A stretch of 48,829 nt of DNA. It comes from Streptomyces albidus (ex Kaewkla and Franco 2022) (GTDB lineage Bacteria > Actinomycetota > Actinomycetes > Streptomycetales > Streptomycetaceae). The notes under the pieces were generated by a model that saw only the letters and a program-made list of their open reading frames with translations, searched no databases and was not told where the DNA came from. This document shows positions 18,372 through 48,829 of the stretch, piece after piece; positions within the stretch are counted from its first letter, which is position 1; every line of letters starts with the position of its first letter. The stretch lies in assembly GCF_013870515.1 (NCBI RefSeq), contig NZ_JACBXA010000018.1, positions 1 to 48,829 of the forward strand, in the 5' to 3' direction. The position numbers and the translations under genes were made by a program.

Positions 18372-18387
18372 TCGAACGTGTGTTTGG
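18372..18387. promoter_or_regulatory. LexA (SOS) box upstream of lexA
   Basis: TCGAACGTGTGTTTGG fits the Gram-positive/actinobacterial LexA box (CGAAC, four bases, GTTCG) with one mismatch in the right half. It lies 63 nt upstream of the lexA start and just upstream of a TACCGT -10 candidate (18408-18413), consistent with autorepression. Confidence 0.75.
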
Positions 18388-18449
18388 CGCAACCTTTCGA
18401 AACCAACTACCGTTGTCCTACTAGGGAGAACCGCTCGAGAGGGGCCGAC

Positions 18450-19244
18450 GTGACCACCACCGCAGACAGTGCCACCATCACCTCCCAGAACCGTTCCGCG
18501 CAGTCACTCGACCACATTCAGCCGCTGAATGAGGCCATGGACGCGGAGGCTCAGGAGGATCAACAAGTCAAGCGCTCGCTGCCGGGTCGACCTCCGGGCA
18601 TCCGGGCGGACAGCTCGGGGCTGACCGACCGGCAACGCCGGGTGATCGAGGTGATCAGGGACTCCGTGCAACGACGTGGTTACCCACCGTCGATGCGCGA
18701 GATCGGCCAGGCCGTCGGCCTCTCCAGCACCTCCTCCGTCGCGCACCAGCTGATGGCTCTGGAGCGCAAGGGCTTCCTGCGCCGCGACCCTCACCGGCCG
18801 CGTGCGTACGAGGTCAGGGGCTCGGACACCTCCAGCGCACAGACCGCCACCGACACCACGGGCAAGCCTTCCGCGTCCTACGTTCCGCTCGTCGGCCGTA
18901 TCGCCGCCGGCGGGCCGATCCTCGCGGAGGAGTCGGTCGAGGACGTGTTCCCGCTGCCGCGCCAACTGGTCGGTGACGGCGACCTGTTCGTGCTGAGGGT
19001 CGTCGGTGACTCGATGATCGAGGCAGCTATCTGCGACGGCGACTGGGTGACCGTACGCCGCCAGCCGGTCGCCGAGAACGGCGACATCGTCGCTGCGATG
19101 CTGGACGGCGAGGCCACCGTCAAGCGCTTCAAGCGCGAGGACGGCCACGTGTGGCTGCTGCCGCACAACGCCGCCTACCAGCCGATCCCGGGTGACGACG
19201 CGACGATTCTCGGCAAGGTCGTAGCGGTGCTGCGCAGGGTGTGA
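18450..19244 (+). CDS. lexA: LexA, SOS response repressor
   Basis: A 264-residue protein from GTG 18450, preceded by GAGAGGGG. A 55-residue N-terminal tail is followed by a winged helix ([35 protein letters not shown]) and an S24 self-cleavage domain. The scissile bond is Ala153-Gly154 in RIAAGGP, with catalytic Ser188 (GDSMIEAAI) and Lys225 (ATVKRF). The spacings 153-188 and 188-225 equal those in E. coli LexA (84-119-156). It represses DNA-damage genes and is cleaved when RecA filaments form. A LexA box lies in its own promoter. The frame opens earlier, at 18378, but that would cover the promoter. Confidence 0.96.
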
Positions 19245-19510: not shown

Positions 19511-19984
19511 TCATCCGAACTGGCCGGGCTGGTAGTCGCCGGCGGGCTGCTTGATGATGACGTTCATCCGGTTGAAGGCGTTGATGAGAGCGATCAGGGA
19601 GACCAGGGCGCCGAGTTGGTCCTCGTCGTAGTGCTTGGCGGCATCCTCCCAGGCCTGGTCCGTGACGCCACCGGCCCCGTCCGCGATGCGGGTGCCCTGC
19701 TCGGTCAACTCCAGCGCGGCGCGCTCCTCCTCGGAGAAGACCGTGGCCTCCCGCCACGCTGCGACCAGGTTGAGGCGCAGCGACGACTCACCGGCGGCGA
19801 TGGCGTCCTTGCTGTGCATGTCGGTGCAGAAGCCACACCCGTTGATCTGACTCGCGCGGAGCGTGACCAGATGCTGCGTCGCGATCGGAAGCGTCGAGTC
19901 CGAGACGACCTTGTTCGCCGCGATGATGTGCTTCAGGAGCTTGCCTGTGGTCGGGCTGTCGAAGACGTTCAAACGGGCATCCAT
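19511..19984 (-). CDS. carboxymuconolactone decarboxylase / AhpD-like protein
   Basis: A 157-residue all-helical protein with the AhpD-type redox pair CGFCTDMH near residue 55, preceded by HLVTLRASQIN, a strong family signature. AhpD-like proteins act as peroxidase partners or thiol reductases in oxidative defence; real decarboxylases of the family lack the CxxC pair. ATG 19984 follows AGGGGAGA; the frame is open 80 codons further upstream but loses family character. It lies downstream of dinG on the same strand after 193 bp. Confidence 0.88.
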   Translation of the reverse strand: MDARLNVFDSPTTGKLLKHIIAANKVVSDSTLPIATQHLVTLRASQINGCGFCTDMHSKDAIAAGESSLRLNLVAAWREATVFSEEERAALELTEQGTRIADGAGGVTDQAWEDAAKHYDEDQLGALVSLIALINAFNRMNVIIKQPAGDYQPGQFG

Positions 19985-20177
19985 GCGGGTCTCCCCTGCC
20001 GTTGTCGGTGGCTTACACACCTGAGACGGGACGGCTCGGCAGGATGTGACACGAAGGAATGTGCCGTGCGTCTCGCCCTGCCGCGCCACGGAGGGCCACC
20101 TGCGACGACACTCATGTGGGCTGCAGAGACGGCGCTCCAGAGGTCGTAGGGAGACCGGTGCCCGCGGCCGAAGCGGG

Positions 20178-22190
20178 CTAGCGGGCCGCGTCGGCCTTCT
20201 TGGCCACCTCGTCGATGGCGGCAAGGGAGCGTCGCACCTGGTTGCGGTCTGTCGTGTACCAGAAGTCCGGCATCGACGCCCGGAGGAAGCCGCCGTAGCG
20301 GGCCCGCTCCAGACGCGGGTCCAGGACGGCGACCACGCCCTTGTCGCCCGCCGCCCGGACGAGCCGCCCCGATCCCTGAGCCATCAGCAGTGCCGCGTGT
20401 GTGGCCGCCACCGCCATGAAGCCGTTCCCCCCGTGCTCCTCCACGGCCTTCTGCCTGGCGCTCATCAGCGGGTCGTCCGGACGAGGGAAGGGAATGCGGT
20501 CCATGACCACCAACTGGCAGTTGGTTCCCGGCACATCGACGCCCTGCCAGAGCGAGAGGGTGCCGAAAAGGCAGGTCGACGCATCCTCGGCGAAGCGGCG
20601 GATCAGCTCGCCGAGCGTCTCCTCCCCCTGCAGCAGGATGGGGACGTCGAGCCGCCCGCGCAGGTCTTCGGCTGCGGACTGGGCTGCGCGCATGGAGGAG
20701 AACAGGCCGAGCGTGCGGCCGCCTGCGGCACCCACGAGCTCGGCGAGTTCGTCGAGCATGTCCTGGCGGGAGCCCTCACGACCGGGCGGCGCCAAGTGCC
20801 CCGCCACGTACAGGATTCCCTGCTTGCGGTAGTCGAAGGGCGAGCCGGCGTCCAGGCCGCGCCACTGCGGGGTCTCCTCCGCTGCGACCTCGCCCTTGCC
20901 GCCGGGCGAGTCGTCTTCCAGGACGCGCTCGGGGGCGAGGCCGAGTGAGGCGCCGACCCCGTTGAAGTCGCCGCCGAGCTTGAGCGTGGCGGATGTGAGA
21001 ACCACCGAGCGGTCGGCGAAGAGCTTCTCACGCAACAGCCCGGAGACCGACAATGGCGCGACCCTCAGCGAGGCTCCGTACCGGTCGTGCCGCTCGTACC
21101 AGATCACGTCGAACTCGGAGCCCTCGACGACCCGTTCGGCGACCTCGTGCACGTTCTCCATGGAGGCCAGGGCCTGTTTGCGCACCGCGTCCTCGTCCTG
21201 GACGGACCTGTCGCGGGTGTTCCCGATGGCAGTGATGCATGCACGGGCCGCATCGCGGAGAGCCATCAGAACGTGTCCCAGGTCTTCCGGGACCACTTCC
21301 AGGCGGCCGGGAAGGGCCAGCTCCATCAGCCGCTCGAAGCTCTCCGCCGCGGTCTGCAGCCTGTCGGCCGTCTTCTCGTCGGCGAGCCGGGCGGCGCGGC
21401 GCACCGCCCGGTTGACGCCGCCCGGAGCCAGCTCGCCCGTGGCCACGCCTGTGACCCTCGAGACCAACTCGTGGGCCTCGTCGACGATCAGCACATCGTG
21501 GGGCGGAAGCACGGCGGCACCCTCGATCGCGTCGATCGCGAGCAGGGCGTGGTTGGTGACGATGACCTCCGCGAGCTTGGCGCGCTCGCGGGCGGCCTCG
21601 GCGAAGCACTCCGCTCCGTATGCGCACTTGGAGGCGCCGAGGCATTCGCGGGCGGAGACCGAGACCTGGGACCAGGCCCGGTCGGAGACGCCGGGCCGCA
21701 GGTCGTCCCGGTCGCCGGTCTCGGTGTCGTCCGACCAGTCGCGCAGGCGGAGGAGGTCCTTGCCGAGCCGAGAGGTGGGGGCGGCGGCCTCGAACGGGTC
21801 GAAGAGCCCGTCCTCCTCTTCCTGCGGCACTCCTTCGTGCAGGCGGTGCAGACACAGGTAGTTGGACCGGCCCTTGAGCATGGCGAACTCGGCGCGGCGG
21901 CGCAGCAGCGGGTGCAGCGCCTCGACGGTGCGGGGCAGGTCCCGCTCGACGAGCTGCCTCTGGAGGGCGAGCGTCGCCGTCGCGACGACGACGTGCTCGC
22001 CGTGAGCCAGGGCGGGAACCAGATATCCGAGGGACTTCCCCGTGCCGGTGCCCGCCTGGACAAGCAGATGCGTGCCGCCGTCGACGGCTTCCGCCACGGC
22101 CTCGGCCATGGCGACCTGACCAGGACGTTCCGTGCCGCCGACGGCGGTCACAGCGGCATTGAGGAGATCGGTGAGGGCGGGCTTGCTCAT
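20178..22190 (-). CDS. dinG: DinG-type ATP-dependent DNA helicase
   Basis: A 670-residue protein of the XPD/DinG group. Walker A is QAGTGTGKSLGYLVPALAHG (residues about 44-56), DEAH is in LIVDEAHELVSRV, and four Cys between the Walker motifs (YLCLHRL, then CLGASKCAYGAEC) fit the Fe-S cluster. Motifs V/VI are LWQGVDVPG and AQGSGRLVRAAGDKG. DinG unwinds DNA 5'-3' and resolves R-loops and G-quadruplexes. ATG 22190 gives the family-like N-terminus; a GTG two codons earlier is possible. It starts only 40 bp after the second siderophore synthetase gene, with a possible own -10 (TAGGGT, 9 nt before the ATG). No LexA box was found nearby. Confidence 0.93.
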   Translation of the reverse strand: MSKPALTDLLNAAVTAVGGTERPGQVAMAEAVAEAVDGGTHLLVQAGTGTGKSLGYLVPALAHGEHVVVATATLALQRQLVERDLPRTVEALHPLLRRRAEFAMLKGRSNYLCLHRLHEGVPQEEEDGLFDPFEAAAPTSRLGKDLLRLRDWSDDTETGDRDDLRPGVSDRAWSQVSVSARECLGASKCAYGAECFAEAARERAKLAEVIVTNHALLAIDAIEGAAVLPPHDVLIVDEAHELVSRVTGVATGELAPGGVNRAVRRAARLADEKTADRLQTAAESFERLMELALPGRLEVVPEDLGHVLMALRDAARACITAIGNTRDRSVQDEDAVRKQALASMENVHEVAERVVEGSEFDVIWYERHDRYGASLRVAPLSVSGLLREKLFADRSVVLTSATLKLGGDFNGVGASLGLAPERVLEDDSPGGKGEVAAEETPQWRGLDAGSPFDYRKQGILYVAGHLAPPGREGSRQDMLDELAELVGAAGGRTLGLFSSMRAAQSAAEDLRGRLDVPILLQGEETLGELIRRFAEDASTCLFGTLSLWQGVDVPGTNCQLVVMDRIPFPRPDDPLMSARQKAVEEHGGNGFMAVAATHAALLMAQGSGRLVRAAGDKGVVAVLDPRLERARYGGFLRASMPDFWYTTDRNQVRRSLAAIDEVAKKADAAR

Positions 22191-22230: not shown

Positions 22231-24081
22231 TCACACCGGGTGAAGGGGGTTGGCGACGGTCCCGTGCACGGCGGCGTGCGGGCGTTCGGAACGGTCGCGG
22301 TAGCCGTCCATGTGCAGACGGTTGCGGTTGAGGCAGAGGCGGTCGATGCGCGGGGCGAGCAGGTCGAAGGTCCGGAAGCGGTCCTTCAGTTCGGGGAAGC
22401 GCCCGTGGTAGCGCTCGATCTCCGCCCGTACGAGTGACCAGAACTCCGCTTCCGGCACGTGTAGTTGCTCCTCGCACAGGGGTGCCAGGTAGCGGAAGAC
22501 GCCGATGAAGAGACCGGAGTGGATGAACTGGGTGAGGAAGTCCGGACGCTCCCGCAGCAGCACCTCACTCACCTCCTGGGGCATGTCTGCCAGCTCGGGC
22601 ACGGGCTCGGAGGTGACGTTGACGTCGTCGACGAAGTCCTTGATCGCCAGTCGTACGGGCACGTCGTGCTCGTCGAAGACGACGATCGCGTTCTCGCCGT
22701 GCGGGGAGAAGACCGTTCCGTAGCGGTAGAGGAAGTGCAGCAGGGGAGGGAGCAGAGCGGCGAAGAGGTGGCGCAGCCACACGCGCGGCTTCAGCCCCGA
22801 CCGCTTGACCAGCTCCGCCGTGAGCGACTTCTCCCGTGCGTCGGTGTGGATGAGGGACGCCAGGGTGCGCGCTCGTTCCCCGGAGTCCAGCTGTCCGGCC
22901 AGGGGCTCCCGCCAGATGCAGCCGAGCAGTTCGCGGTACTGGTACGGCACTTGGGGCATCCGGTCGTACAGGGGGTGCGTGACGGTGACGGACGCGACCT
23001 CGCCGAGGAGGATCACGCGGCAGTCGTCACGAAGGTAGGAATCGCCCTCGCGCAGCCCGTGGATCCACTGCGTGACGGCGGGAGCGGCGAGTGTCCGTTC
23101 GGTCGGCAGCCCCCGCCACACGAGGGTGTTGAGCACGGACAGCGGGAGTTTGACGGTGTGCCGCTCGGGACGGCTGGTGTTGAGGAAGGTACGGATCGAC
23201 TGCTGCGGGAGCCGCAGATCACCGTCCGAGCCCAGCGGAACGATGTCGCCTGCGGCGATCGAGGCCGCGAAGAGCGGAACGATCGTCTCGTCCCACTGCC
23301 AGGGGTGGACGGGGAGGAAGAGGTAGTCCTCGGAGGGCAGCCCGCGCGAGCGAAGGGTGTGCCGGAAGTCGCGCAGGGTGTCCGGGCTGAGCTCGCGCGC
23401 GTAGAGCCGGTGCGGTTCGGTGAGTGTCCGCACGCCGCGGTAGGCGGCGAGGCCGGCTCGTACCGCGATCCACGGCAGACAGCGTGCGCGGCGCGCCTCG
23501 GGAGCCCAACGGGTCGCGTCGGAGGCGGAGAAGCCCAGCCGTCCCTTGTTCGCGACGAGCCAGGGGTGGCCCTTCTGGTGGCCCTCGAGCTCCGCGTAGT
23601 CGAGTTCGGCAAGCCGCTCGGCGGTCACCTCGCGGGTGGCCAGCTGCACGTCGGCTGTGAGGGTCGCGCTCAGTTCGCGGATGAGGTGGCCGGTGGTGTC
23701 TCCGGTGAGGCCGAGCAGCGTCTCGTGGCTGTGGGCGAGGAAGACGAACGGGTCCATGCCGGCGGGTGTGAGGGAGGCCGGATCGATGTTCCAGTGCCCG
23801 TACGCGCCGCAGCGTGCCCGGAAGCGGAGGGTGAGGTCGTCGCCGACGTGCAGACGGTACGGGCGCATCGTGCCCCGCGAGATGCGGTCGCCCGCCTCCG
23901 GGCCGGAAGCGGAGTCGGGCTCGGGACGGATGATCTCCTCGTACGCGAACTCGCTGATCATCTTCACCAGCAGCCTGAGCGACGCCCGTCGCCAGCTGTC
24001 CCGGTCGAGGCCGGGCGGAAGGTGGAGCGGAGCGGCTTCGCAGGAATCGTCCTGGCCGTCGTCAGCGGTCGGCAGGTGCAC
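22231..24081 (-). CDS. IucA/IucC-family NIS siderophore synthetase (second in operon)
   Basis: A 616-residue NRPS-independent siderophore synthetase, which adenylates a carboxylate (citrate, succinyl or similar) and condenses it with an amine or hydroxylamine. Motifs are GHQKGHPWLVANKGRLGFSA near 165-185, FLPVHPWQWDE, KLPLSVLN and FSPHGENAIVVFD. The layout is close to DesD/IucC-type (type C) enzymes, but substrate class cannot be assigned from sequence alone. It starts with GTG 24081 after AAAGGAG and follows the acetyltransferase gene by 94 bp. dinG follows at 40 bp. Confidence 0.9.
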   Translation of the reverse strand: MHLPTADDGQDDSCEAAPLHLPPGLDRDSWRRASLRLLVKMISEFAYEEIIRPEPDSASGPEAGDRISRGTMRPYRLHVGDDLTLRFRARCGAYGHWNIDPASLTPAGMDPFVFLAHSHETLLGLTGDTTGHLIRELSATLTADVQLATREVTAERLAELDYAELEGHQKGHPWLVANKGRLGFSASDATRWAPEARRARCLPWIAVRAGLAAYRGVRTLTEPHRLYARELSPDTLRDFRHTLRSRGLPSEDYLFLPVHPWQWDETIVPLFAASIAAGDIVPLGSDGDLRLPQQSIRTFLNTSRPERHTVKLPLSVLNTLVWRGLPTERTLAAPAVTQWIHGLREGDSYLRDDCRVILLGEVASVTVTHPLYDRMPQVPYQYRELLGCIWREPLAGQLDSGERARTLASLIHTDAREKSLTAELVKRSGLKPRVWLRHLFAALLPPLLHFLYRYGTVFSPHGENAIVVFDEHDVPVRLAIKDFVDDVNVTSEPVPELADMPQEVSEVLLRERPDFLTQFIHSGLFIGVFRYLAPLCEEQLHVPEAEFWSLVRAEIERYHGRFPELKDRFRTFDLLAPRIDRLCLNRNRLHMDGYRDRSERPHAAVHGTVANPLHPV

Positions 24082-24175
24082 TGTTGATCTCCTTTGCTCG
24101 GGGACGAGGCAGGGGAGGGTCGGCCGTCGAGCCGGTGCGTCGTGGGAGACGCACCGGGCCTGGCCGTGACAGAAC

Positions 24176-24913
24176 TCAGAGCAGATCCCGCAACTCCCGG
24201 TCGCGGATCATCAGAGCCGCCCGTTTGCCGGGCAGGTCGACTTCTGCGGACAGGCGGAAGCCGGCGCTGAGGAACGCCGAAACCGAGGCGACGTTCCGGA
24301 TGTCCGGTTCGGCCAGCACCCGGCCGCAGTCGGGGCGTTGATCGAGGACGAGGTCGGCGACGGCGCGCAGGAGGGCGGTACCGAGACCGCGCCCGCGGTC
24401 GGGCACGCCGCCGATCAGCAGGTGCAGTCCGGTGTCGTGCGGCCGGGCCCGGCAGTGGCGCGCGATGGGGTCGAGGTCGGCGCGGTAGATCTCCCAGTAG
24501 CTCATCGGCACCCCGTCGAGGACGCCGAGGCAGGGCACGCTGCGGCCGTCGCCGTCCAGTTGTGCGCGCAGGTGAGCGGCGGTGACCTGCTCCGGTCCGG
24601 CAAGCCCCCAGAAGGCGGCGACCGCGGGGTCGTTCATCCACGCTGTGATCAGGCGCAGATCGCGCTCCAGCCGGACCGGCACGAGCCGCATCGTGCCCGC
24701 AGGCGTACGGCAGGGCGGCCAGTCGTGGACCGAGTCGAGCAGACCGGGCTCCACCGGCCGCCTCGGCTCGGCCGAGTAGCGGGCCCTGCCTGGCCGGCCG
24801 GCGTCGGCGTTCTCGTGCTCGGCGAGCAAGGCGGCCAGTTCGTCGGCCAGTTGAAGGTCGAGTGTGTCGTCGCTGCTGGACGCGCCGGGAGCGGGGTGTC
24901 TCGGCTCGTGCAC
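24176..24913 (-). CDS. siderophore-type N-acyltransferase (GNAT, IucB/MbtK-like)
   Basis: A 245-residue protein. After a 75-residue N-terminal stretch comes a GNAT fold with MRLVPVRLERDLRLITAWMN, SYWEIYRADLDPIARHCRAR (the WExYR-type block of siderophore acyltransferases) and the acyl-CoA loop GGVPDRGRGLGTALLRAVAD. Such enzymes acylate a hydroxylated lysine, ornithine or diamine to give the hydroxamate ligand. GTG 24913 follows GAGGAGG at 7 nt. It sits between two NIS synthetase genes and is almost surely in one operon with them. Confidence 0.87.
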   Translation of the reverse strand: MHEPRHPAPGASSSDDTLDLQLADELAALLAEHENADAGRPGRARYSAEPRRPVEPGLLDSVHDWPPCRTPAGTMRLVPVRLERDLRLITAWMNDPAVAAFWGLAGPEQVTAAHLRAQLDGDGRSVPCLGVLDGVPMSYWEIYRADLDPIARHCRARPHDTGLHLLIGGVPDRGRGLGTALLRAVADLVLDQRPDCGRVLAEPDIRNVASVSAFLSAGFRLSAEVDLPGKRAALMIRDRELRDLL

Positions 24914-24977
24914 GGCGGCGCCTCCTCTTCTCTCGGTGCTCGGTCGCGTGGGACGGGGGTGCCGGACTCCCGGCAGC

Positions 24978-27023
24978 TCAGGCGGCCAGCGGGTTGGTGA
25001 TGGTGACGTAGACGGACTGGGTGTCGACGGGGCCGACGAGTTCGTCCAGGCCGTGCAGACGCGTGAGCAGGTTGGCCTTGCAGCGCAGCCTCGGCGACTC
25101 CAGCAGCAGGGAGGGCAGCGGCGACGCGGGCGCGCCCGAGACCTCCTTCGTCTGCGTACGCAGGAAGCGGCGCAGACCGGCGAGCAGGAGCCGCTCGTCG
25201 GCGAGGTTCTGTTCGCCGAACGCGCCGATCAGACCGAGGATGTTGTTGATGCCGAGGTAGTACGCGAAGCGTTCGTCGGCCACCGCGTCGGGGACGAAGG
25301 AGTCGCTGGCGATGCCGAGGCGGGCACCGGGCAGCCGCGCCTCCAGGCCTTCGCGGTGCGAAGTTCGGAAGTAGTAGCCCTGGTTGTCGCGGTAGCGTCC
25401 GCCGGCCGGCCAGCCGGCCTCGTCCAGCAGCACCAGCGTGTTCTGCTGGTGCGCCTCCAGGGCGATGCCGGCGTGTGCGTCGAGCCAGAGCACGGGCCGT
25501 ACGACGGCGTCGAGGTAACGCAGGAACCACTCCGTGGCGACAGCCGCCGCAGGCCGGTCGGTACGCCTGGCCAGACGCTCGACGATGTCGGTCAGCCGTG
25601 AGCGCAGCACCCCGCGCCGCCCTCCCGGCCAGGGCCGCGGCGAGGTCAGCCCGGCGATGCACACCGCGTCCTCGGTGACCCCGAACGGGTTGTGCCGGAC
25701 GACCGTCTCGAGGCCGGGGACCGGTTCCCCGTCGGGGCCGTCCACGCCGAGCCACGCCGGATCACGGACGATGTCGAAACCCGGGTGCGCGGCCCGCCAT
25801 TGGGCGCCGAGGCCGGAGCGCAGCAGCCGGTGCACTTCGAGGCCGCGCAGCAGCTCCTTGCGCAGGTTCTCCCTGCGGGAGTTGGTGATGGGCAGGCCCA
25901 GGGACAGCTTGAGCATCACCGATCCGTCGGGCTGGGCGACGGTGCGCACGGACGATGTGGGATGCCAGAGGTCACCTGACGGGCCGAGGTCGTGGAGGAG
26001 CCCGTCGGCGAGGAGCCGGGCCGCTGCGGGCTGGTGCTGCACCTGCCGGGCCTGCCAGGGATGCATCGGCAACGGGACGGTGCCGGAGGGGAGTCGTGCG
26101 GCGAGCGCGTCTCCCCCGAGGCGCTTTGCGAGCTGTTCGCCGGTGACGGTCCGGCCCCGTTCCGTCCAGGCGGAGTCGCACGCGAACACCGAACGGTCCA
26201 CCGCCATCCAGTGCAGCGGGAACGCGGCGCGGAGTTCGGGCGAGTACGCGAAGGACTCGGCTTCGGACAGCCCTTGACGGCTCTTGGGCGCGGGGTGCAG
26301 CGGATGGCCCAGGACGAGTGACTGCTCGGCGTCCAGGAACGGGCTTGTCCCCAGGGGGGTTTCGGGGTTGGCGTCCCGTCCGGTGAGGAAGTCGGTCGTG
26401 CGCTGCACGGAGTCGAAGACGCGGGCGACCAGCCCGGCGGCCTCCGCGAGGCCCGTGCCGTCGCGGACGGCGCCGGATGCGGCGTCGTCCGCGGGATCGG
26501 CTGCCCCGGACGGCGCGGGCGCCGCTCCGGCTTCGGAATTCCGGTACGCCGCTTCCCGGACGATGAGCGCCGCCAGCGTCACGGCGTCGAGCGGGGGTGC
26601 GCCCGTGGGGGCGCCTTGGAGCAGCGGCTGTCCGAAACGGTGCAGGCCGGTGAGCGACCAGTAGTGCACGGGGACGTGCAGGACGGCCCCGGTGGCGTCG
26701 AGGGCGATGCGGAGCAGGTCCTGGGCGGGCCGTGGGACGTCGTGCTCCCTGACCCAGCAGCGGAGCAGATTCCGTACGGCCGAGGCGTCCGCGGTGCGGG
26801 CGGAGTCCCACGGCTGGGCGGGTGCGGACCGCTGGCGCCCCGCATCGTCGCGTGGCATGGGGAGTTCGGTGTCCGCCGCGCGTGCCGCGCCGGTGTCCGC
26901 GAGCGACTCGCGCGCCGGGTCGAGCACCTGTCCCGGTACGGCGGCTGAACGAACGGGGGGACCGAACTCCTCGCGCACCGGGTCCCGCTGGATGCTCTGG
27001 GCTGATCCGGTACGGGCGTTCAC
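24978..27023 (-). CDS. IucA/IucC-family NIS siderophore synthetase (first in operon)
   Basis: A 681-residue protein of the same superfamily as the gene at 22231-24081 but distinct. It has a variable N-terminus, VLGHPLHPAPKSRQGLSEAE near 242, LPMHPWQARQVQ, SVRTVAQ, KLSLGLPITNSRRENLRKEL, LEAHQQNTLVLLDEAG and YRDNQGYYFRTSH. It probably carries out one of two successive condensations of the assembly line. GTG 27023 follows GGAGGAG at 7 nt; the 29 codons upstream in frame are rejected. It is first in the operon, and a degenerate iron-box-like 19-mer lies 106 nt upstream. Confidence 0.9.
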   Translation of the reverse strand: MNARTGSAQSIQRDPVREEFGPPVRSAAVPGQVLDPARESLADTGAARAADTELPMPRDDAGRQRSAPAQPWDSARTADASAVRNLLRCWVREHDVPRPAQDLLRIALDATGAVLHVPVHYWSLTGLHRFGQPLLQGAPTGAPPLDAVTLAALIVREAAYRNSEAGAAPAPSGAADPADDAASGAVRDGTGLAEAAGLVARVFDSVQRTTDFLTGRDANPETPLGTSPFLDAEQSLVLGHPLHPAPKSRQGLSEAESFAYSPELRAAFPLHWMAVDRSVFACDSAWTERGRTVTGEQLAKRLGGDALAARLPSGTVPLPMHPWQARQVQHQPAAARLLADGLLHDLGPSGDLWHPTSSVRTVAQPDGSVMLKLSLGLPITNSRRENLRKELLRGLEVHRLLRSGLGAQWRAAHPGFDIVRDPAWLGVDGPDGEPVPGLETVVRHNPFGVTEDAVCIAGLTSPRPWPGGRRGVLRSRLTDIVERLARRTDRPAAAVATEWFLRYLDAVVRPVLWLDAHAGIALEAHQQNTLVLLDEAGWPAGGRYRDNQGYYFRTSHREGLEARLPGARLGIASDSFVPDAVADERFAYYLGINNILGLIGAFGEQNLADERLLLAGLRRFLRTQTKEVSGAPASPLPSLLLESPRLRCKANLLTRLHGLDELVGPVDTQSVYVTITNPLAA

Positions 27024-27128
27024 AGAGATCTCCTCCGCCGTCGGCTCGGCGCGCAGAAGAGCGAGCCGTGTCCCCCGTCCGTACCAACGAAGCCGGAGCC
27101 CCCGGATCACGGGCGAAGTGAAGATCTG

Positions 27129-27264: not shown

Positions 27265-28482
27265 ATGTCAGCCAACCTCCGGCCTCCGCGGCGACGTCCC
27301 GCGCTGGCCGTGGCAGCGGTCGTCGCCGCGCTGGCCCTCACGGCCACCGCTTGCGGCCCGGAAGACGACAACGCGGGCGGCGATCCCGGCGCTTCGGATT
27401 CGGCACAGCCGGACAAGAAGGAGAAGCGGGATCTGGGACTGCCGGAGGAGCTGCCCAAGGACCTCCCCAGCTCGCTCGAGGACCTCGACAAGTGGCGTAA
27501 CGGCGCATGGAAGAACTGGGACCGGGACGAATGGCTCCGCAGGGCCAAGGAGTTCGTCAACCCGATCATCGACGACCTCTGGGACCCGGACCGGATGAAG
27601 GACGCCGACGGGAACGACCGCAAGGTCGACGAGGACGAGATCGACGACGGCGAGAGCGGCGGCGACAACGGCACCGGTGAGGACGAAGGCGTCACCGACC
27701 CCACGCCTTCGCGAGTGGCGGCCAAGCCGGTCAAGCTGCCCTACACCAAGGCCACTCCGCCCGTCGGCAAGGTCTTCATGGACACCCCGCAAGGCTCCAT
27801 GGTCTGCTCCGGCACCGTCGTGACGGACCCGGCGCACCCGGGCAAGTCCAACCTCGTCGCCACCGCCGGGCACTGCGTGCACGCGGGGAAGACCGGGGGC
27901 TGGTTCCGCAACGTGGTCTTCGTGCCGCGGTACAACCCGAAGGGCCTCTCCAACGCCGAGCTGGGGAAGGCCTCCAAGAAGGACGTCGCCCCCGACGGGG
28001 TCTGGTGGGCGAAGTACGCCGGGACGACCGACCACTGGATCAAGGAGGGTTCGAAGACCGGCGGCCGCGGCGCCCCTCAAGACTTCGCCGTGCTCAAGGT
28101 CCAGCCCGAGGACAAGAAGTCCGGGCCGTCCCTGCAGGAGATCGTGGGCAAGGCCGCGAAGGTCAACTTCAACACGCCCCGGGTGAAGGCGATTCCGAGC
28201 CTCACCCCGCACGGCTACCCGGCAGCTCCTCCGTACGACGGATCGAAGATGCTGACGTGCAAGGACAAGCCGGGCCGTCTGACGATCGACCCGAGCGAGC
28301 CGACCATGTACCGCGTCGGCTGCAGCATGACGGGCGGCTCCTCGGGCGGCGGCTGGCTCAGCCCGAGCGGCAGGCAGCTGCTCTCCGTCACCTCGATCGG
28401 TCCGGTGGGGGGCGGTTGGCTCGCCGGTGCGCGCATCGGCAAGGAGTCCAAGGACGTCTTCGACTCGATCGCGAAGAAGTAG
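27265..28482 (+). CDS. lipoprotein trypsin-like serine protease, copy 1
   Basis: A 405-residue protein. Residues 1-29 are a signal peptide ending in a lipobox-like LTATAC, so Cys30 would be lipidated and the protein anchored outside the membrane. A conserved stalk segment (PKDLPSSLEDLDKWRNG, WKNWDRDEW) and an acidic linker precede the protease domain. The catalytic triad is His203 (ATAGHC), Asp273 (QDFAVL) and Ser360 (GSSGGGW). Cys181/204 and 332/353 could form disulfides. The domain resembles glutamyl-endopeptidase/V8-like secreted proteases. ATG 27265 follows GGGGGAG; the much longer open frame upstream is antisense to the siderophore gene. A paralogue follows directly. Confidence 0.88.
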   Translation: MSANLRPPRRRPALAVAAVVAALALTATACGPEDDNAGGDPGASDSAQPDKKEKRDLGLPEELPKDLPSSLEDLDKWRNGAWKNWDRDEWLRRAKEFVNPIIDDLWDPDRMKDADGNDRKVDEDEIDDGESGGDNGTGEDEGVTDPTPSRVAAKPVKLPYTKATPPVGKVFMDTPQGSMVCSGTVVTDPAHPGKSNLVATAGHCVHAGKTGGWFRNVVFVPRYNPKGLSNAELGKASKKDVAPDGVWWAKYAGTTDHWIKEGSKTGGRGAPQDFAVLKVQPEDKKSGPSLQEIVGKAAKVNFNTPRVKAIPSLTPHGYPAAPPYDGSKMLTCKDKPGRLTIDPSEPTMYRVGCSMTGGSSGGGWLSPSGRQLLSVTSIGPVGGGWLAGARIGKESKDVFDSIAKK

Positions 28483-28569
28483 CAACGGCCGTACGCCCCG
28501 GGTGAGTCGGGCGGCCGCGTCGCGCTGAGCCGCGATCAGGGCCGTCCGCTCACCCTGGCCGGTACGCCG

Positions 28570-28594
28570 GCCGGTGCCGTCCGAAGGCACCGGC
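28570..28594. terminator. 9-bp hairpin between the two protease genes
   Basis: GCCGGTGCC (28570-28578) and GGCACCGGC (28586-28594) pair perfectly around a 7-nt loop, 88 nt after the first protease stop. No T-run. Confidence 0.5.
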
Positions 28595-28676
28595 TGCTCA
28601 GCGACACCCAGTTCAAACAGCGTTCCAGCAGCACAGCACTGAGTTCACACGAGCCCGCCCAGGGGGATTTTCTTCG

Positions 28677-29876
28677 ATGTCATCGACAAGCAGGCCGGGA
28701 CACCGGCGTCCGATCGTGGCCGCCGCCGCGATCGCCGCGACTCTCGTCCTGACCGCCACCGCCTGCCAGTCCGGCGACGACGGTAAGACCGACGCACAGG
28801 CCAAGCCCTCCGCGAAGCCGTCCTCGACCGAGGACCTCGGCATTCCGAAGGAGCTGCCCAAGGACCTTCCCAGCTCGCTGAAGGACCTGGAGAAGTGGCG
28901 CAACGGCGAGTGGAAGAACTGGGACCGCGACCAGTGGGTCCGTGAGGGCTCCGACTTCGTCAACCCGTACATCAAGGACCACTGGAAGCCCGGCCGGATG
29001 GACAAGGCCGAGGACAACGGAAAGCGCGTCCCCGCCGACGTCGAGTCCGCCTCCGGTGCGAGCGCCACCGGGCCCGAGCCGCGTGCGGTGAAGGCGCGGA
29101 ACGTGAAGACGCCGTACACCCGCAACGCCGCGCCCGCCGGCAAGGTCTTCATGGACACCCCGAAGGGCCCGATGGTCTGCTCCGGCACGGTCGTCAAGGA
29201 CCCGCGCAACCCGGGCAAGTCCAACCTCGTCGCCACCGCCGGGCACTGCGTGCACTCCGGCAGGAGCGGCGGCTGGCTGCGCAACATCATGTTCGTGCCC
29301 GCGTACAACAACCGCGGCCTCTCCCCCGCGCAGGTGCAGAGCGCCCAGCCGCAGGACGTCGCACCGTACGGGCAGTGGTGGGGCGAGTGGGCCCAGACGA
29401 GCGACTACTGGATCCAGAAAGGCGCGCAGTCGGGCGGCGGAGGCGCCCAGCAGGACTTCGCGGTGCTGCACGTGCGGCCCGAACGGCCCGCCGGCAAGTC
29501 CCTCGAGGAGACCGTCGGAGCGGCCGTGAAGATCAACTTCCGGGCTCCGCGTACCGAGCGCTTCTCCGGGCTCAGCTCCTACGGCTACCCGGCTGCGCCC
29601 CCGTACGACGGGGCGAAGATGTACAGCTGCACCGACAAGCCGGGCCGCCTGACGATCGACCCGTCAGAGCCCGCCCTGTACCGCATCGGGTGCACCATGA
29701 CCGGCGGTTCCTCCGGCGGCGGCTGGTTCATGAAGGGCAAGGGCGGCAAGGCCGAGCTGGTCTCGGTGAACTCGATCGGCCCGCAGCCCGCCACCTGGCT
29801 CGCGGGGCCGCGCCTCGGGCCGACCGCGAAGAACGTCTTCGACGGGATCAGCAAGAAGTACGCGGGCAAGAACTGA
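28677..29876 (+). CDS. lipoprotein trypsin-like serine protease, copy 2
   Basis: A 399-residue tandem paralogue of the upstream gene. It has a lipobox-like LTATAC at 25-30, the same stalk motif (KWRNGEWKNWDRDQW near 73-87), and the triad His190, Asp260 and Ser346. Long identical runs such as KSNLVATAGHCVH and DKPGRLTIDPSEP show duplication, while the linker between stalk and protease has diverged. The ATG follows CAGGGGGA at about 10 nt. A strong bidirectional terminator follows. Substrates are unknown. Confidence 0.88.
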   Translation: MSSTSRPGHRRPIVAAAAIAATLVLTATACQSGDDGKTDAQAKPSAKPSSTEDLGIPKELPKDLPSSLKDLEKWRNGEWKNWDRDQWVREGSDFVNPYIKDHWKPGRMDKAEDNGKRVPADVESASGASATGPEPRAVKARNVKTPYTRNAAPAGKVFMDTPKGPMVCSGTVVKDPRNPGKSNLVATAGHCVHSGRSGGWLRNIMFVPAYNNRGLSPAQVQSAQPQDVAPYGQWWGEWAQTSDYWIQKGAQSGGGGAQQDFAVLHVRPERPAGKSLEETVGAAVKINFRAPRTERFSGLSSYGYPAAPPYDGAKMYSCTDKPGRLTIDPSEPALYRIGCTMTGGSSGGGWFMKGKGGKAELVSVNSIGPQPATWLAGPRLGPTAKNVFDGISKKYAGKN

Positions 29877-37631: not shown

Positions 37632-38777
37632 TCAGACGTCGGAGCGGGAGCGTCGGCTCCGGCGGGCTTCCCGGAGGGGTGCGCCGGCACGGTGCAGGCT
37701 CCCGAGCGCCTGCCGGTAGGACGTGAGGAGCCCCGTCTCCAGATACTCCACGCCCGCCTCTGCGCAGTACTGTCGGACGATGGGTTGCGCCTTGCGCAGC
37801 TGCGGACTCGGCATGCTCGGGAAGAGGTGGTGCTCGATCTGGTGGTTGAGCCCGCCCAGTGCGATGTCCGTGAACCACCCGCCGCGTACGTTGCGTGAGG
37901 TGAGCACCTGACGGCGCAGGAAGTCCGGGCGGCTCGTGCCCGTGATCGTCGGCATGCCTTTGTGGTTGGGGGCGAAGATGGAGCCCAGGTACAGACCGAA
38001 GAGGCACTGGTGGACCGCCAGGAAGAGCAGAGCCATGCTCGGGGGAAGCACCAGGAACAGCGCCGTCAGGTAGAGACCGAAGTGCGCGAACAGCATGGTC
38101 CCTTCGACTCCCCGCCGTTTCACTGACCGGTTCCGAAGGGCCCTGACTCCGGAGACGTGCAGGTTGAAGCCCTCCAGGGCGAGCAGCGGGAAGAACAGGG
38201 CGGCCTGTGAGCGCCCGATGAGTCGTGGCAGGCCCCTGGCGGTACGTGCCTGGTCCTGGGTCCACACCAGCAGGTCGGGGACGACGTCCGGGTCCAGCTC
38301 CTCGTGGTTGGGGTTGGCGTGGTGACGGGTGTGCTTGTCCTGCCACCAGCCGTAGCCCATTCCGATGCCCAGATTCCCGGCGATCCGTCCCACGCGGTCG
38401 CTCGCCCGGCGCCGGCGGAAGACCTGGCGGTGTGCCACGTCGTGTGCCACGAGGGCGGTTTGACCGAACACGAGCGCCAAGTACCCCGCCACCGCCAGGC
38501 TCCACCAGCTCTCGCCGACCACCAGGAAGGCTGCCCAGCCCAAGGTGTAGAGCGTGGCCACGAGCGTGATCCGCAGGGTGTAGTAGCCGGTCCGCCGGCG
38601 CATGAGACCCGCCGCCACGATCTGTTTCGACAACCGGGCGAAGTCACTGCCACCGGTGCGCGAGGCGGTGGCCGCCGCGGCGGGTGCCGCGACGGCGTGC
38701 GAAGTACGGGCGGACGGGTGCTCGGCACTGTCCAGGAGCCGGAAATCCTCAGGGGGGATGGACGGGTGAGCACTCAT
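37632..38777 (-). CDS. membrane fatty-acid desaturase
   Basis: A 381-residue integral membrane di-iron desaturase. The three His boxes are HDVAH (112-116), HTRHH (149-153) and HQIEHH near 306. Hydrophobic segments about 68-88, 92-110, 186-205 and 228-260 frame them. It inserts a double bond into acyl chains of membrane lipids, often in response to cold; the regiospecificity is unknown. A front-end-type HQIEHH box is present but no cytochrome b5 domain. ATG 38777 follows GAGGAGG at 6 nt. The last 25 residues are Arg-rich. Confidence 0.92.
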   Translation of the reverse strand: MSAHPSIPPEDFRLLDSAEHPSARTSHAVAAPAAAATASRTGGSDFARLSKQIVAAGLMRRRTGYYTLRITLVATLYTLGWAAFLVVGESWWSLAVAGYLALVFGQTALVAHDVAHRQVFRRRRASDRVGRIAGNLGIGMGYGWWQDKHTRHHANPNHEELDPDVVPDLLVWTQDQARTARGLPRLIGRSQAALFFPLLALEGFNLHVSGVRALRNRSVKRRGVEGTMLFAHFGLYLTALFLVLPPSMALLFLAVHQCLFGLYLGSIFAPNHKGMPTITGTSRPDFLRRQVLTSRNVRGGWFTDIALGGLNHQIEHHLFPSMPSPQLRKAQPIVRQYCAEAGVEYLETGLLTSYRQALGSLHRAGAPLREARRSRRSRSDV

Positions 38778-45520: not shown

Positions 45521-46111
45521 ATGCCTGCTCGCCCCTACCACCACGGGAACCTGCGCTCCGCCCTGCTCGCGCGGGCCGAGCAGACCGTCCGCGAGCGCGG
45601 TACGCAGGCACTGTCCCTGCGTGAGCTGGCGCGCGAGATCGGCGTCAGCCACGGCGCCCCGCGGCGCCACTTCAACGACCGCCAGGCGCTTCTGGACGCC
45701 CTCGCCGAGGACGGCTTCGTACGGCTCGGCCGTGCCCTGGACGAGGCCGTACGGGACGCGGGGCCGGGATGCACCCCCCAGCTCCAGGCCCTCGCCCACA
45801 CCTACGTGGCCTTCGCGACGCAGCACGCCGCGCTGCTCGAGCTGATGTATGCCGGCAAGCACCGCGAGGGCGCCGAGCACGTGTACGCCGCGGCGGAGCA
45901 GGCCTTCGCCGTCTCGCTGACGGTCATCTCCGAAGCGCAGCAGTCCGGCGAGCTCGTCCCGGGCGACCCGGAGCCGCTCGCTCAGGTCTCCCTCGCGACG
46001 CTTCACGGGCTCGCCGCCATGGCGAACGGCGGGATGCTGGACGGCGAGGACCTACAGGTCGTGGTGACCGACGCCATGGAAATGCTGCTGTCCGGGCTGA
46101 GACGACGCTGA
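45521..46111 (+). CDS. TetR/AcrR-family repressor
   Basis: A 196-residue protein. The N-terminal HTH is YHHGNLRSALLARAEQ, LSLRELAREIGVSHGAPRRH and FNDRQALLDALAEDGF; the C-terminal helical domain (ALAHTYVAFATQHAALLELM, LHGLAAMANGGML) would bind an inducer. It is divergent from the SDR gene and presumably controls it through the inverted repeat. ATG 45521 gives a normal TetR start; ATG 45455 lies inside the operator and adds 22 unusual residues. Confidence 0.88.
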   Translation: MPARPYHHGNLRSALLARAEQTVRERGTQALSLRELAREIGVSHGAPRRHFNDRQALLDALAEDGFVRLGRALDEAVRDAGPGCTPQLQALAHTYVAFATQHAALLELMYAGKHREGAEHVYAAAEQAFAVSLTVISEAQQSGELVPGDPEPLAQVSLATLHGLAAMANGGMLDGEDLQVVVTDAMEMLLSGLRRR

Positions 46112-46151
46112 GCCGCAGCCCTCGCCCCTCGCGTCCAGGGCTCCGGACTGG

Positions 46152-46157
46152 CACGAT
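46152..46157 (+). promoter_or_regulatory. -10-like CACGAT for a leaderless TAXI gene
   Basis: CACGAT ends 7 nt before ATG 46165, with no ribosome binding site between. The first base departs from TANNNT. Confidence 0.3.
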
Positions 46158-46164
46158 CACCGCC

Positions 46165-47178
46165 ATGTTCAGCTTCCGCCGATTCGCCCACAGCCTCGGC
46201 GCCCGCCCCCGGCGGTCCGTCGTGCGCGCCGCCGCAGCAGTGGCAGTCGTGCTCGGGCTGCTGGCGTGGTGGCTCGTGCCGGGCGGCAGCTCCTCCCCCA
46301 GCGGCACGGTCTCCTTCGCCACCGGTGTGCCCACGGGGGTGTACGCCCGCTACGGCAGTCTCCTCAAGGAGCGGCTGCATCGCGAGATGCCCGATGTCGA
46401 CCTGCGCCTGCTCCCGAGCCAGGGCTCCGTGCAGAACCTGGACATGGTCTCCTCCGGCAAGGCCTCCTTCACCATCGCGGCGGCGGACGCGGTCGCCACC
46501 TTCCGCGACGACAAGGAGCCGGGCGCGAAGCAGCTGCGCGCGTGCGCGCGGCTCTACGACGACTACATTCAGCTCGTCGTTCCGGCCGGGTCGAGCGTGC
46601 GCAGCGCGAAGGACCTGAAGGGCCTCCGGGTGGGCGTCGGGCAGGAACGCTCGGGCGTGAACCTCATCGCAGGCCGCCTGCTGCGCGCCGCCGGACTCGA
46701 CCCCGACAAGGACGTGCGTCCCGTACGCGCCGGCATCGACCGCATGCCGGACCTGCTGGAGAAGGGAAAGCTTGACGCCTTCTTCTGGTCCGGCGGACTG
46801 CCGACGACGGCGATCGAGCGGCTGGCCGGGAAGACCAACATCCAGCTCGTCCAGCTCGGCGACCTCGTGGAGAAACTCCACGCCCTGGACCCCGAGACGC
46901 GCTACTACCGCGCCGCCGTGATGCCGCCCGACGCCTATCCGGCCGTGCAGCAGGGCGAACCCGTCAAGACCGTCGCGGTGGCCAACCTGCTGGTGACGAC
47001 CGACCGTACGGACACGGCCCTGACGGAAGGCATGACGCGGGCGGTGCTCAACAGCCGCGACCAGATCGGCGACAAGGTGCACGCGGCGCAGAAGGTCGAC
47101 CTGCGTACGGCGATCTACACGGCGCCGCTGCCGCTGCACACCGGCGCCAGCCACTACTACCGGTCGGTCAAACCCTGA
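46165..47178 (+). CDS. TAXI-family TRAP-type solute-binding protein
   Basis: A 337-residue exported protein. A basic N-terminus and hydrophobic segment (VVRAAAAVAVVLGLLAWWLV, about 19-38) form an uncleaved anchor or signal. The body is a periplasmic-binding fold: VSFATGVPTGVYARYGSLLK, SFTIAAADAVATFRD, ARLYDDYIQLVVPAGS, RVGVGQERSGVNLIAGRLL and LDAFFWSGGLPTTAIERL, which is the TAXI pattern. TAXI proteins feed fused DctQM permeases or act as sensors for kinases. No permease or kinase lies inside the window after it. No Shine-Dalgarno precedes the ATG. Confidence 0.85.
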   Translation: MFSFRRFAHSLGARPRRSVVRAAAAVAVVLGLLAWWLVPGGSSSPSGTVSFATGVPTGVYARYGSLLKERLHREMPDVDLRLLPSQGSVQNLDMVSSGKASFTIAAADAVATFRDDKEPGAKQLRACARLYDDYIQLVVPAGSSVRSAKDLKGLRVGVGQERSGVNLIAGRLLRAAGLDPDKDVRPVRAGIDRMPDLLEKGKLDAFFWSGGLPTTAIERLAGKTNIQLVQLGDLVEKLHALDPETRYYRAAVMPPDAYPAVQQGEPVKTVAVANLLVTTDRTDTALTEGMTRAVLNSRDQIGDKVHAAQKVDLRTAIYTAPLPLHTGASHYYRSVKP

Positions 47179-47372: not shown

Positions 47373-48829
47373 ATGCGGAGACACATCCTGCCGTTGGGAG
47401 TCGTGGCGGCGGTGGCGACAGTGGTCGCGCTGACGAGCACGTCCTCGTACGCCGCACCGGCGAAGCCCGGCGCCGCGAAGACCACCGCGCAGGGCGCTGC
47501 CGCGAAGGCGGCCGCGGGGAAGACCGCCGACGTGGACGGCGACGGCTTCGAGGACCTGACCGTCGGTGCGCCCGAAGCCACCGTCAAGGGCCACGCGAAG
47601 GCCGGCTACGGCTCGCTGACCTTCGGCTCCAAGTCCGGTATGAGCGTGGGCCGTCACCAGGGGTTCACCCAGTCCCGTCCGGGAGTGCCCGGAACACCGG
47701 AGGCGGGTGACAAGTTCGGCTCGTCCATCGCGGCCGGCGACATGGACGGCGACGGCTACGCCGATGTCGTCGTGGGCGCCAGCGGCGAGGCCATAGGCGA
47801 CGTCAAGGGCGCCGGATCGGTGACGATCATCTTCGGCTCCGCGACGGGACTCTCCAGCAAGGCCATCGCCTTCCACGCCCCGTCCGTGAACGCACGGGAG
47901 GGCTTCGGACGGCGGCTGAGCCTCGGCGACTTCAACAAGGACGGGCTCCAGGACCTGGCCACCGTCGAGGGAACGAAGATCGACGTCGTCCACGGGGCCA
48001 AGAACCTGCGCTCCACCCCGACGCCGAAGATCAAGGCGTACACCCCGCCCGGCGGCGGCGCGGGCACCGGCCGCTTCTCCGCGGGCGACGTCGACGGCGA
48101 CGGCTACGCGGACCTCGTCACCGTCGCCTACTTCGACGACCCGGCAGACGAGGGCACCCTCGGCGTGCTGCGCGGTTCCAAGGACGGGCTCGACGGCGCC
48201 CTCGGCAAAGGCATCGGACTCCCCTTCGCCGGCTACAACGCGGTCGTGGGCGACGTGAACGGCGACGGCAAGGACGACGTCGTCATCGACACCGGCTTCT
48301 CCGACGGCCCCGACGACCACCAGCTCCGCACCTTCCCCGGCACCACGGACGGCCTGGACGCCGCCGGAGCCGTGGCCTGGCAGGGCGAGCCGCAGAACGG
48401 CACCGCCGAAGAGCTCGCCGACATCGACGGCGACGGCTTCGACGACGTCCTGATCGCCGACAGCTCCGCCCCGGACAGCGACGGCATCAACAACGCCGGC
48501 GCACTCTCCGTCGTGCGCGGCAGCAAGAGCTGGCTCACCGAAACCGGTGCGCAGAACATCTCGCTCGACACCGAGGGCGTCATGGGAGTCGCCGAGGGGA
48601 ACGACCAGTTCGGCTCCGCTCTCGCACCGGCCGACTTCAACGGCGACGGAACCGCGGACCTGGCCGTGGGCGCCCAGGGGAAGTGGCTCGGCACGGGTGC
48701 CGTCAGCACCGTCTACGGCAGTGCGGACGGACTCACGGGCGACGGCTCGATCCTCTTCGGGCCGGACTCCTTCGACTATCCGTCGGTCAAGTCCCGCTTC
48801 GGCGCCGCGCTTTCGACGCGCCCTGCTTC
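47373..48829 (+). CDS. secreted FG-GAP (integrin-alpha-like) repeat protein, 3' end cut by window edge
   Basis: It starts at ATG 47373, after GGAAAGGGA, and reads about 485 codons to the window edge without a stop. Residues 1-27 are a signal peptide (HILPLGVVAAVATVVALTST, then SSYAAPAKP). At least seven calcium-binding DxDGDG-type loops occur: DVDGDGFEDL, DMDGDGYADV, DFNKDGLQDL, DVDGDGYADL, DVNGDGKDDV, DIDGDGFDDV and DFNGDGTADL, each in a blade with FGS or RGS phrases, so a seven-or-more-bladed beta-propeller is expected. Such Streptomyces proteins are extracellular with unknown ligands; esterase or lectin-like roles have been suggested for relatives. The spacing before the ATG holds no clear promoter. 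Confidence 0.9.
   Translation, partial: MRRHILPLGVVAAVATVVALTSTSSYAAPAKPGAAKTTAQGAAAKAAAGKTADVDGDGFEDLTVGAPEATVKGHAKAGYGSLTFGSKSGMSVGRHQGFTQSRPGVPGTPEAGDKFGSSIAAGDMDGDGYADVVVGASGEAIGDVKGAGSVTIIFGSATGLSSKAIAFHAPSVNAREGFGRRLSLGDFNKDGLQDLATVEGTKIDVVHGAKNLRSTPTPKIKAYTPPGGGAGTGRFSAGDVDGDGYADLVTVAYFDDPADEGTLGVLRGSKDGLDGALGKGIGLPFAGYNAVVGDVNGDGKDDVVIDTGFSDGPDDHQLRTFPGTTDGLDAAGAVAWQGEPQNGTAEELADIDGDGFDDVLIADSSAPDSDGINNAGALSVVRGSKSWLTETGAQNISLDTEGVMGVAEGNDQFGSALAPADFNGDGTADLAVGAQGKWLGTGAVSTVYGSADGLTGDGSILFGPDSFDYPSVKSRFGAALSTRPA

Follow-up and report, generated by a model that had tools for sequence, protein, structure and literature searches.

The described systems closest to the operon considered here, a set of nonribosomal peptide synthetase-independent siderophore (NIS) genes in Streptomyces albidus, are those for rhizobactin 1021/schizokinen, aerobactin and desferrioxamine. 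The rhbABCDEF genes have the same six activities that we found together in six-gene operons of relatives. Aerobactin is made from N-hydroxylysine by one operon (iucABCD) that has no decarboxylase. The operon under study lies in the 48,829-base stretch analyzed here (the window; contig C90 of genome G000, which totals 6.66 Mb) and comprises the following genes:

24978..27023, minus strand: type A (IucA-like) NIS synthetase, predicted to carry out the first condensation, presumably on citrate (Pfam; best PDB match)
24176..24913, minus strand: GNAT acyltransferase (IucB/MbtK/RhbD-like) of 245 amino acids, predicted to acylate a hydroxylamine (Pfam Acetyltransf_8, PF13523, E 3.5e-46)
22231..24081, minus strand: type C (DesD/IucC-like) NIS synthetase of 616 amino acids, predicted to carry out the second condensation (Pfam IucA_IucC, 247.6 bits, and FhuF)

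The window shares the type A, GNAT and type C logic of aerobactin, and its type A synthetase is nearest to IucA, which tops its PDB matches (E 2.7e-47); the proposed pathway differs in being split and in involving a decarboxylase. The likeness to rhizobactin 1021/schizokinen is that this decarboxylase best matches RhbB and that three relatives of the same order have all six genes together, whereas in our genome the genes occupy two loci rather than one operon, a dedicated aminotransferase was not found and the synthetase half carries no iron box. With the desferrioxamine genes desABCD the proposed pathway has in common a decarboxylase, a hydroxylase, a GNAT protein and a type C synthetase, and a des-like cluster is present on contig C484 of the same genome; in contrast, des is contiguous, lacks a type A synthetase and has an iron box (17/19). 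We regard the pathway as one of a known kind, here split and apparently rewired. We consider it likely, with a probability of roughly 0.7, that the window operon provides the assembly steps of an NIS pathway divided between two loci, the precursor pair lying at a distance, beside pyruvate kinase.

The best solved relatives of the type C synthetase in the PDB are DesD and DfoC, followed by IucC and an alcaligin synthetase. Its identity to the DesD-like protein encoded on C484 is only 36%, and it is therefore not DesD itself. The best solved relative of the GNAT protein is MbtK; a role as aminoglycoside acetyltransferase is not favored, the NCBIfam AAC(6') matches being far under their cutoffs. 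In Streptomyces coelicolor, SCO5799 to SCO5801 have been called a putative siderophore set; the accessible part of the source lists SCO5799 as aminotransferase and names no product. By numbering, that set would comprise an aminotransferase, a type A synthetase and a GNAT protein without type C, whereas the window has type C. The position of these numbers beside lexA and nrdRJ presumably places the set at the same address as the window operon. We noticed no link between SCO5799 to SCO5801 and a distant decarboxylase-hydroxylase pair in the accessible part of the open-access literature.

A candidate precursor pair beside pyruvate kinase

The preliminary description of the window had reported two distinct synthetases around an IucB/MbtK-like acyltransferase, with no hydroxylase, decarboxylase, aminotransferase or transporter in the window. 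Both observations were borne out, and a Pfam scan of 30 distinct open reading frames (31 queries) detected no N-hydroxylase, pyridoxal phosphate (PLP)-dependent decarboxylase, class III aminotransferase or siderophore transporter among them. It had also proposed that the pathway relies on genes elsewhere, perhaps those for desferrioxamine. The operon is indeed incomplete here, but desferrioxamine is not favored as the supplier, since a separate decarboxylase-hydroxylase pair is present on contig C210; the description saw a real gap and looked to a less likely source.

Contig C210 carries, in order, the C-terminal part of the decarboxylase gene, the hydroxylase gene, VOC and SIMPL genes (both named by eye) and the gene for pyruvate kinase. 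An ATG that could start the hydroxylase gene overlaps the decarboxylase stop codon, and given this ATG, an alternative start at 1158 is probably too short. Several relatives have two separate genes with a 4-base overlap, and on these gene calls a decarboxylase-hydroxylase fusion, suspected from long open frames, was rejected. The hydroxylase (P0006) matches Pfam Lys_Orn_oxgnase with 366 bits, and its nearest solved relatives are a monooxygenase of the desferrioxamine pathway, a second monooxygenase and a putrescine N-hydroxylase. It is 48 to 56% identical to the hydroxylases of five NIS operons of relatives (L052 to L056) and 41% identical to the DesB-like protein of its own genome. The top NCBIfam match of the decarboxylase is RhbB diaminobutyrate decarboxylase, an activity that is also among those annotated for its best solved relative.

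In relatives, the pair is typically flanked by an aminopeptidase gene on one side and by nucleotidase, SIMPL and pyruvate kinase genes on the other. Among the best 80 named loci, the decarboxylase was found at 74 and pyruvate kinase at 77, and no synthetase, GNAT or aminotransferase match was detected in the flank examined; 79 of the best 80 named hydroxylase records carry the name Streptomyces. In S. coelicolor, SCO2014 is pyk1 and SCO2015 a putative secreted nucleotidase in the part of the source available (PMC3293853), and the S. coelicolor pair is therefore expected beside them. The nearest named relatives have a further gene between those for the aminopeptidase and the decarboxylase; on inspection by eye, it seems unrelated. 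Two extra copies of the pair (L075 in G066 and L076 in G005) have no pyruvate kinase match nearby and are preceded by strong iron boxes (16 to 17 of 19).

The two halves are lost jointly far more often than chance would give. The type A synthetase and the hydroxylase were searched for in 296 genomes of the genus, our own included, and ambiguous genomes were searched again. Inspection of 12 apparent synthetase losses at the dinG locus found eight to be real; G028 and G247 have contig breaks, with type C at a contig start, and were counted as present, while G182 and G315, whose contigs end at dinG, were left out. Among the resulting 294 genomes, both halves were found in 283, neither in five, the synthetases only in three and the hydroxylase only in three (Fisher test, P = 1.7e-7). 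The double losses (G027, G137, G173, G175 and G185) fall in about three places on a tree of dinG (80 of 84 loci). In assemblies of at most 100 contigs, both halves were present in 185 and neither in three (n = 188, P = 9.2e-7), with one doubtful case, the broken hydroxylase of G012. Scoring fragmentary or broken hydroxylases (G127, G144 and G012) as absent gave P values of 1.4e-6 (n = 294) and 3.7e-6 (n = 188). The single contig of G012 carries the hydroxylase as two pieces separated by 4.6 Mb and has a fragment of type C at a distance from type A (L192, L193 and L125), a layout due to rearrangement or to assembly error.

These data also bear on the desferrioxamine pathway as supplier, in which DesA and DesB would provide N-hydroxycadaverine and the product would be a citrate-cadaverine hydroxamate. 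A check for des genes in the rest of the genome, as advised, finds the des-like cluster on C484, and 20 genomes without type C at the operon show only DesD-like type C matches (35 to 39%); in these, crosstalk may take place. A sixth operon, L057, moreover has a hydroxylase slightly nearer to DesB (45%) than to that of C210 (43%). However, a dedicated pair exists and tends to vanish along with the synthetases, the C210 hydroxylase is nearer to those of five operons than to DesB, and four genomes that have lost both halves (G027, G173, G175 and G185) retain a hydroxylase match at the DesB level (41 to 43%). We therefore regard borrowing from desferrioxamine as unlikely.

Several observations weigh against the assignment of the pair to a two-locus pathway. 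The decarboxylase of our genome is seen in part only, its upstream region lying beyond the end of C210, and RhbB scores 286 bits for the protein of G004 and 197.8 bits for our partial gene against a cutoff of 900. The only NCBIfam match of the hydroxylase is "putative histamine N-monooxygenase" (391 against a cutoff of 700), and the L057 comparison above points the same way, as do the 20 genomes with only DesD-like type C matches. The Fisher test ignores kinship and the dinG tree represents one gene. Counted among the 283 genomes with both halves are G012, fragments such as those of G127 and G144, six genomes whose sole hydroxylase is of the second type (52 to 57%), and G305, G326 and G327, which have a more distant type A (54 to 58%). 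The hydroxylase occurs without synthetases in G014, where no decarboxylase match was found, in G032, where it occupies one end of a short contig, and in G258. Conversely, G008, G243 and G282, all assemblies of at least 690 contigs, have synthetases and no hydroxylase match above the DesB level. Finally, an aminotransferase-like gene (54%) persists at the locus in G137, one of the double losses.

Operons of relatives and the origin of the two loci

The address of the synthetase operon is defined by two usual neighbors, beyond which the window contains nrdR and a class II ribonucleotide reductase gene:

20178..22190, minus strand: dinG-like helicase, 40 bp downstream of type C (Pfam/NCBIfam, synteny)
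18378..19244, plus strand: lexA (Pfam LexA_DNA_bind and Peptidase_S24)

Three relatives of the same order (G074, G082 and G081) have the aminotransferase, decarboxylase, type A, GNAT, hydroxylase and type C genes in one run before dinG-lexA, with one extra called gene between type C and dinG in G081 and G082. A relative of the same class (G094) has five of the six at this address, no aminotransferase being found in the 15 kb examined, and G105 has all six without a dinG or lexA match beside them. Of 72 same-genus relatives, 67 had the locus, and we retrieved it from these, giving 68 loci with the window. The Streptomyces layout is an aminotransferase (where present), type A, GNAT, type C (where present) and dinG, the last lying outside the stretch examined for G008, G012 and G048. 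No decarboxylase or hydroxylase match was found at any of the 68 synthetase loci. The preliminary description had allowed that the missing genes might lie just outside a mis-drawn operon; this was not seen: in G004, G015, G031 and G064, each of which has the two halves on a single contig, 4.1 to 4.9 Mb lie between them.

It is improbable, in our judgment, that the two loci serve unrelated pathways, the synthetases making a nonhydroxamate siderophore and the pair acting in something else. Such a separation would agree with physical linkage at 0 of 68 loci, with the lack of any promoter motif found to be shared between the halves and with the histamine monooxygenase name of the hydroxylase, a match under its cutoff. 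In contrast, both halves share one operon in several lineages and are lost jointly, and the GNAT gene, whose best solved relative MbtK is a siderophore acyltransferase, is retained.

Type C was not seen at 28 of the 68 loci; G008 and G048 carry it on a different contig, so that 26 remain. Besides the 20 genomes described above, these comprise four with a second-type type C (50 to 51%), G012 with its fragment elsewhere and G051 with no match. Relatives without type C may make a mono-condensed citrate or may rely on DesD to complete the synthesis. As a further point against the two-locus pathway, G051 lacks the GNAT gene at the synthetase locus as well as type C.

Such absences raise the question of whether the operon is the decaying remnant of an old siderophore operon: 8 of 68 loci gave no aminotransferase, 26 of 68 have no type C, eight checked loci have lost the whole synthetase set, and G012 is broken up. 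However, in comparison with the nearest relative, G273, the ratio of nonsynonymous to synonymous substitution rates (dN/dS) was 0.20 to 0.31 for type A, GNAT and type C, and 0.18 to 0.31 when the hydroxylase was added; four neighbor genes gave 0.10 to 0.20. The three window genes are therefore neither a chance set of open frames nor, at least in this pair of genomes, a decaying remnant. With frames open, the promoter conserved and synthetases kept in 286 of 294 genomes, decay is a very improbable explanation.

Phylogenetic trees place Streptomyces type C with the operons linked to dinG (support 1.00) and the aminotransferases with second-type operons (support 1.00). The pyruvate kinase-linked decarboxylases group with the operons of G305, G326 and G327, the extra pair copies and one second-type operon (0.94), and the corresponding hydroxylases with G305 and G327 (0.82). 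G326 has a decarboxylase, type A and GNAT run between the aminopeptidase and pyruvate kinase genes. The simplest reading of these trees suggests that the Streptomyces halves descend from two different operons in an ancestor, from which complementary genes were lost; the ancestral state at the window's address would have been one operon before dinG-lexA, and the present halves would be leftovers of two operons. This history is less well served by the G326 hydroxylase, which is elsewhere in the genome and groups with the second type, and by the type A tree, which has no outgroup, places Streptomyces in its own clade and settles nothing.

The second operon type (L052, L074, L077, L200 and L201) comprises aminotransferase, decarboxylase, type A, hydroxylase and type C genes. 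No GNAT gene of the window kind was matched in these operons, and three have transporter-like genes, read by eye. They may depend on the GNAT protein of the dinG-linked operon.

Promoter motifs and iron boxes at the two loci

Upstream of the type A gene lies a conserved element:

27084..27111, minus strand: promoter of the extracytoplasmic function (ECF) type, CGTGAT-N16-CGTTGG (-35 box 27111-27106, -10 box 27089-27084)

The type A start was placed at the GTG at 27023, which has a GGAGGAG ribosome site upstream; a longer frame with a start at 27110 was rejected, as this start falls within the -35 box. The element is the single match to the promoter motif in the whole window (27111-27084; 0.05 expected). 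Of the 69 same-genus NIS operons, 52 are preceded by a relaxed motif, CGTRAY-N15-17-SGTTG, for which shuffled sequences gave an expectation of 0.14. The controls gave 0 of 58 for decarboxylase loci, 0 of 11 for operons, 0 of 66 for dinG, 0 of 64 for lexA, 0 of 63 for pyruvate kinase, 0 of 65 for the divergent lipoprotein gene and 4 of 59 for hflX (0.38 expected). A tighter motif had 53 matches in 2.2 Mb (both strands, 69 loci), all upstream of the NIS operon and on its strand. The sigma-BldN motif, in the part of its source available, is CGTAAC-N16-CGTTGA (PMC2375139); the window element has exactly this spacing and 9 of 12 bases alike. The synthetase half carries a conserved, ECF-type, non-iron and possibly developmental promoter, and the assembly half would be transcribed from a site resembling those of sigma-BldN and not from an iron box.

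Iron boxes were scored against what we take to be the 19-bp DmdR1 consensus. No box scoring at least 15 of 19 was found upstream of any of the 69 Streptomyces synthetase operons, and the best score in the window, 12, was the same as in shuffles. Scores of 15 to 19 were obtained before six of 12 operons tested (10 to 12 for the other six), and also before the des-like cluster of our genome and the two extra decarboxylase-hydroxylase copies. A first motif upstream of the decarboxylase looked like N-terminal coding sequence and was set aside; the iron-box test was therefore repeated with 700 bases upstream, where one BldN-like match was found in 58 (G273). Upstream of the decarboxylase, one of 58 loci scored 15 and three scored 14 (approximately 0.8 expected at 14 or above). 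With consensus sequences presumed for Zur, LexA, PhoP and DasR, boxes were not above shuffles upstream of either half, with single PhoP-like (1 of 69) and LexA-like matches.

The weak iron-box-like sites before the decarboxylase count against the whole pathway having left iron control. Those scoring at least 14 are in G031, G037, G047 and G273, which branch deeply in the dinG tree, and scores of 14 to 15 of 19 also precede the decarboxylase in four named near relatives within the clade of our genome, the site being shared by S. abyssalis, WMMB 322 and HNM0575.

In S. coelicolor grown on solid medium, log2 changes at 24, 48 and 72 h relative to 16 h, as given in the accessible part of the source, were 0.4, 1.3 and 1.8 for SCO5799 and 0.8, 1.8 and 1.3 for SCO5801, whereas the des decarboxylase gene, SCO2782, gave 1.1, -3.7 and -3.2 and bldN gave 4.6, 4.3 and 4.2; many secondary-metabolite genes also rise in this series (PMC3610822). 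The main text of a DmdR1 regulon paper, as far as available, contains no SCO57xx name (PMC12161575). A tentative extension, which we hold to be clearly less probable than the two-locus pathway and more open to doubt than not, is that a near-universal Streptomyces siderophore pathway was split by complementary loss and its assembly half shifted from iron to BldN control, with a weak iron site retained by the precursor half in deep branches. On this view, the chelator would be produced during the formation of aerial hyphae, with iron shortage as an additional requirement in some species.

Predicted product and remaining window genes

The product had been called unpredictable, which holds in part; the decarboxylase and aminotransferase families point to 1,3-diaminopropane derived from 2,4-diaminobutyrate. 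In most Streptomyces examined, a dedicated aminotransferase, which in relatives scores over the NCBIfam dat cutoff, would make 2,4-diaminobutyrate. Eight of the 68 loci (G000, G012, G013, G031, G037, G043, G044 and G047) showed no such gene, and neither did the locus of the nearest relative, G273; in G015 and G018 it was found by tblastn. A dedicated diaminobutyrate aminotransferase was likewise not found in our own assembly, where gaps are possible, the best match (41%) being EctB of an ectABCD-like cluster, which is over the EctB cutoff. EctB of the ectoine cluster could supply diaminobutyrate and is its likely source in our genome and near relatives.

The RhbB-like decarboxylase beside pyruvate kinase would then yield 1,3-diaminopropane, which the adjoining DesB/RhbE-type flavin monooxygenase would N-hydroxylate. 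The window GNAT protein would acylate the hydroxylamine, type A would join one unit to citrate and type C the second. Judged from the enzyme families, the predicted product is a schizokinen/rhizobactin 1021-like citrate dihydroxamate. Reports of schizokinen by liquid chromatography-mass spectrometry, in part tentative, exist for Streptomyces SL03, S. mutomycini SL02 and S. anulatus RLA103 (PMC13136089, PMC11865988); from the accessible parts of these papers, the published cluster numbers could not be matched to this locus, which weakens their support for our prediction.

The nearest things in the window to the missing functions are the first three of the following, and the fourth is a conserved neighbor of the operon:

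19511-20224: carboxymuconolactone-decarboxylase-family gene
37632-38777: fatty-acid desaturase
45769-47178: TAXI/NMT1-type substrate-binding protein, beside a TetR-type regulator
27265..28482, plus strand: divergent lipoprotein, serine-protease-like by eye, no Pfam match

A homologue of the divergent lipoprotein adjoins the operon at 65 of 68 loci; it is probably outside the pathway. In the window it belongs to a tandem pair of such lipoproteins (27265-29876), serine-protease-like by eye and without a Pfam match. An FG-GAP repeat protein (47373-48827) is truncated by the contig end. Elsewhere in the genome, a further NIS system (L039, G000:C190:14367-16802) has two more PF04183 matches and is unlike the window operon; by eye, its neighbors include an ATP-grasp enzyme and a PLP decarboxylase.

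With the likely missing enzymes placed at a second conserved locus, the putative SCO5799-5801-type cluster becomes a pathway open to testing, for which a product is predicted. As each half by itself is incomplete, cluster-by-cluster mining can miss such a pathway. If our reading of the promoter is true, Streptomyces would employ a metal chelator within its developmental program.

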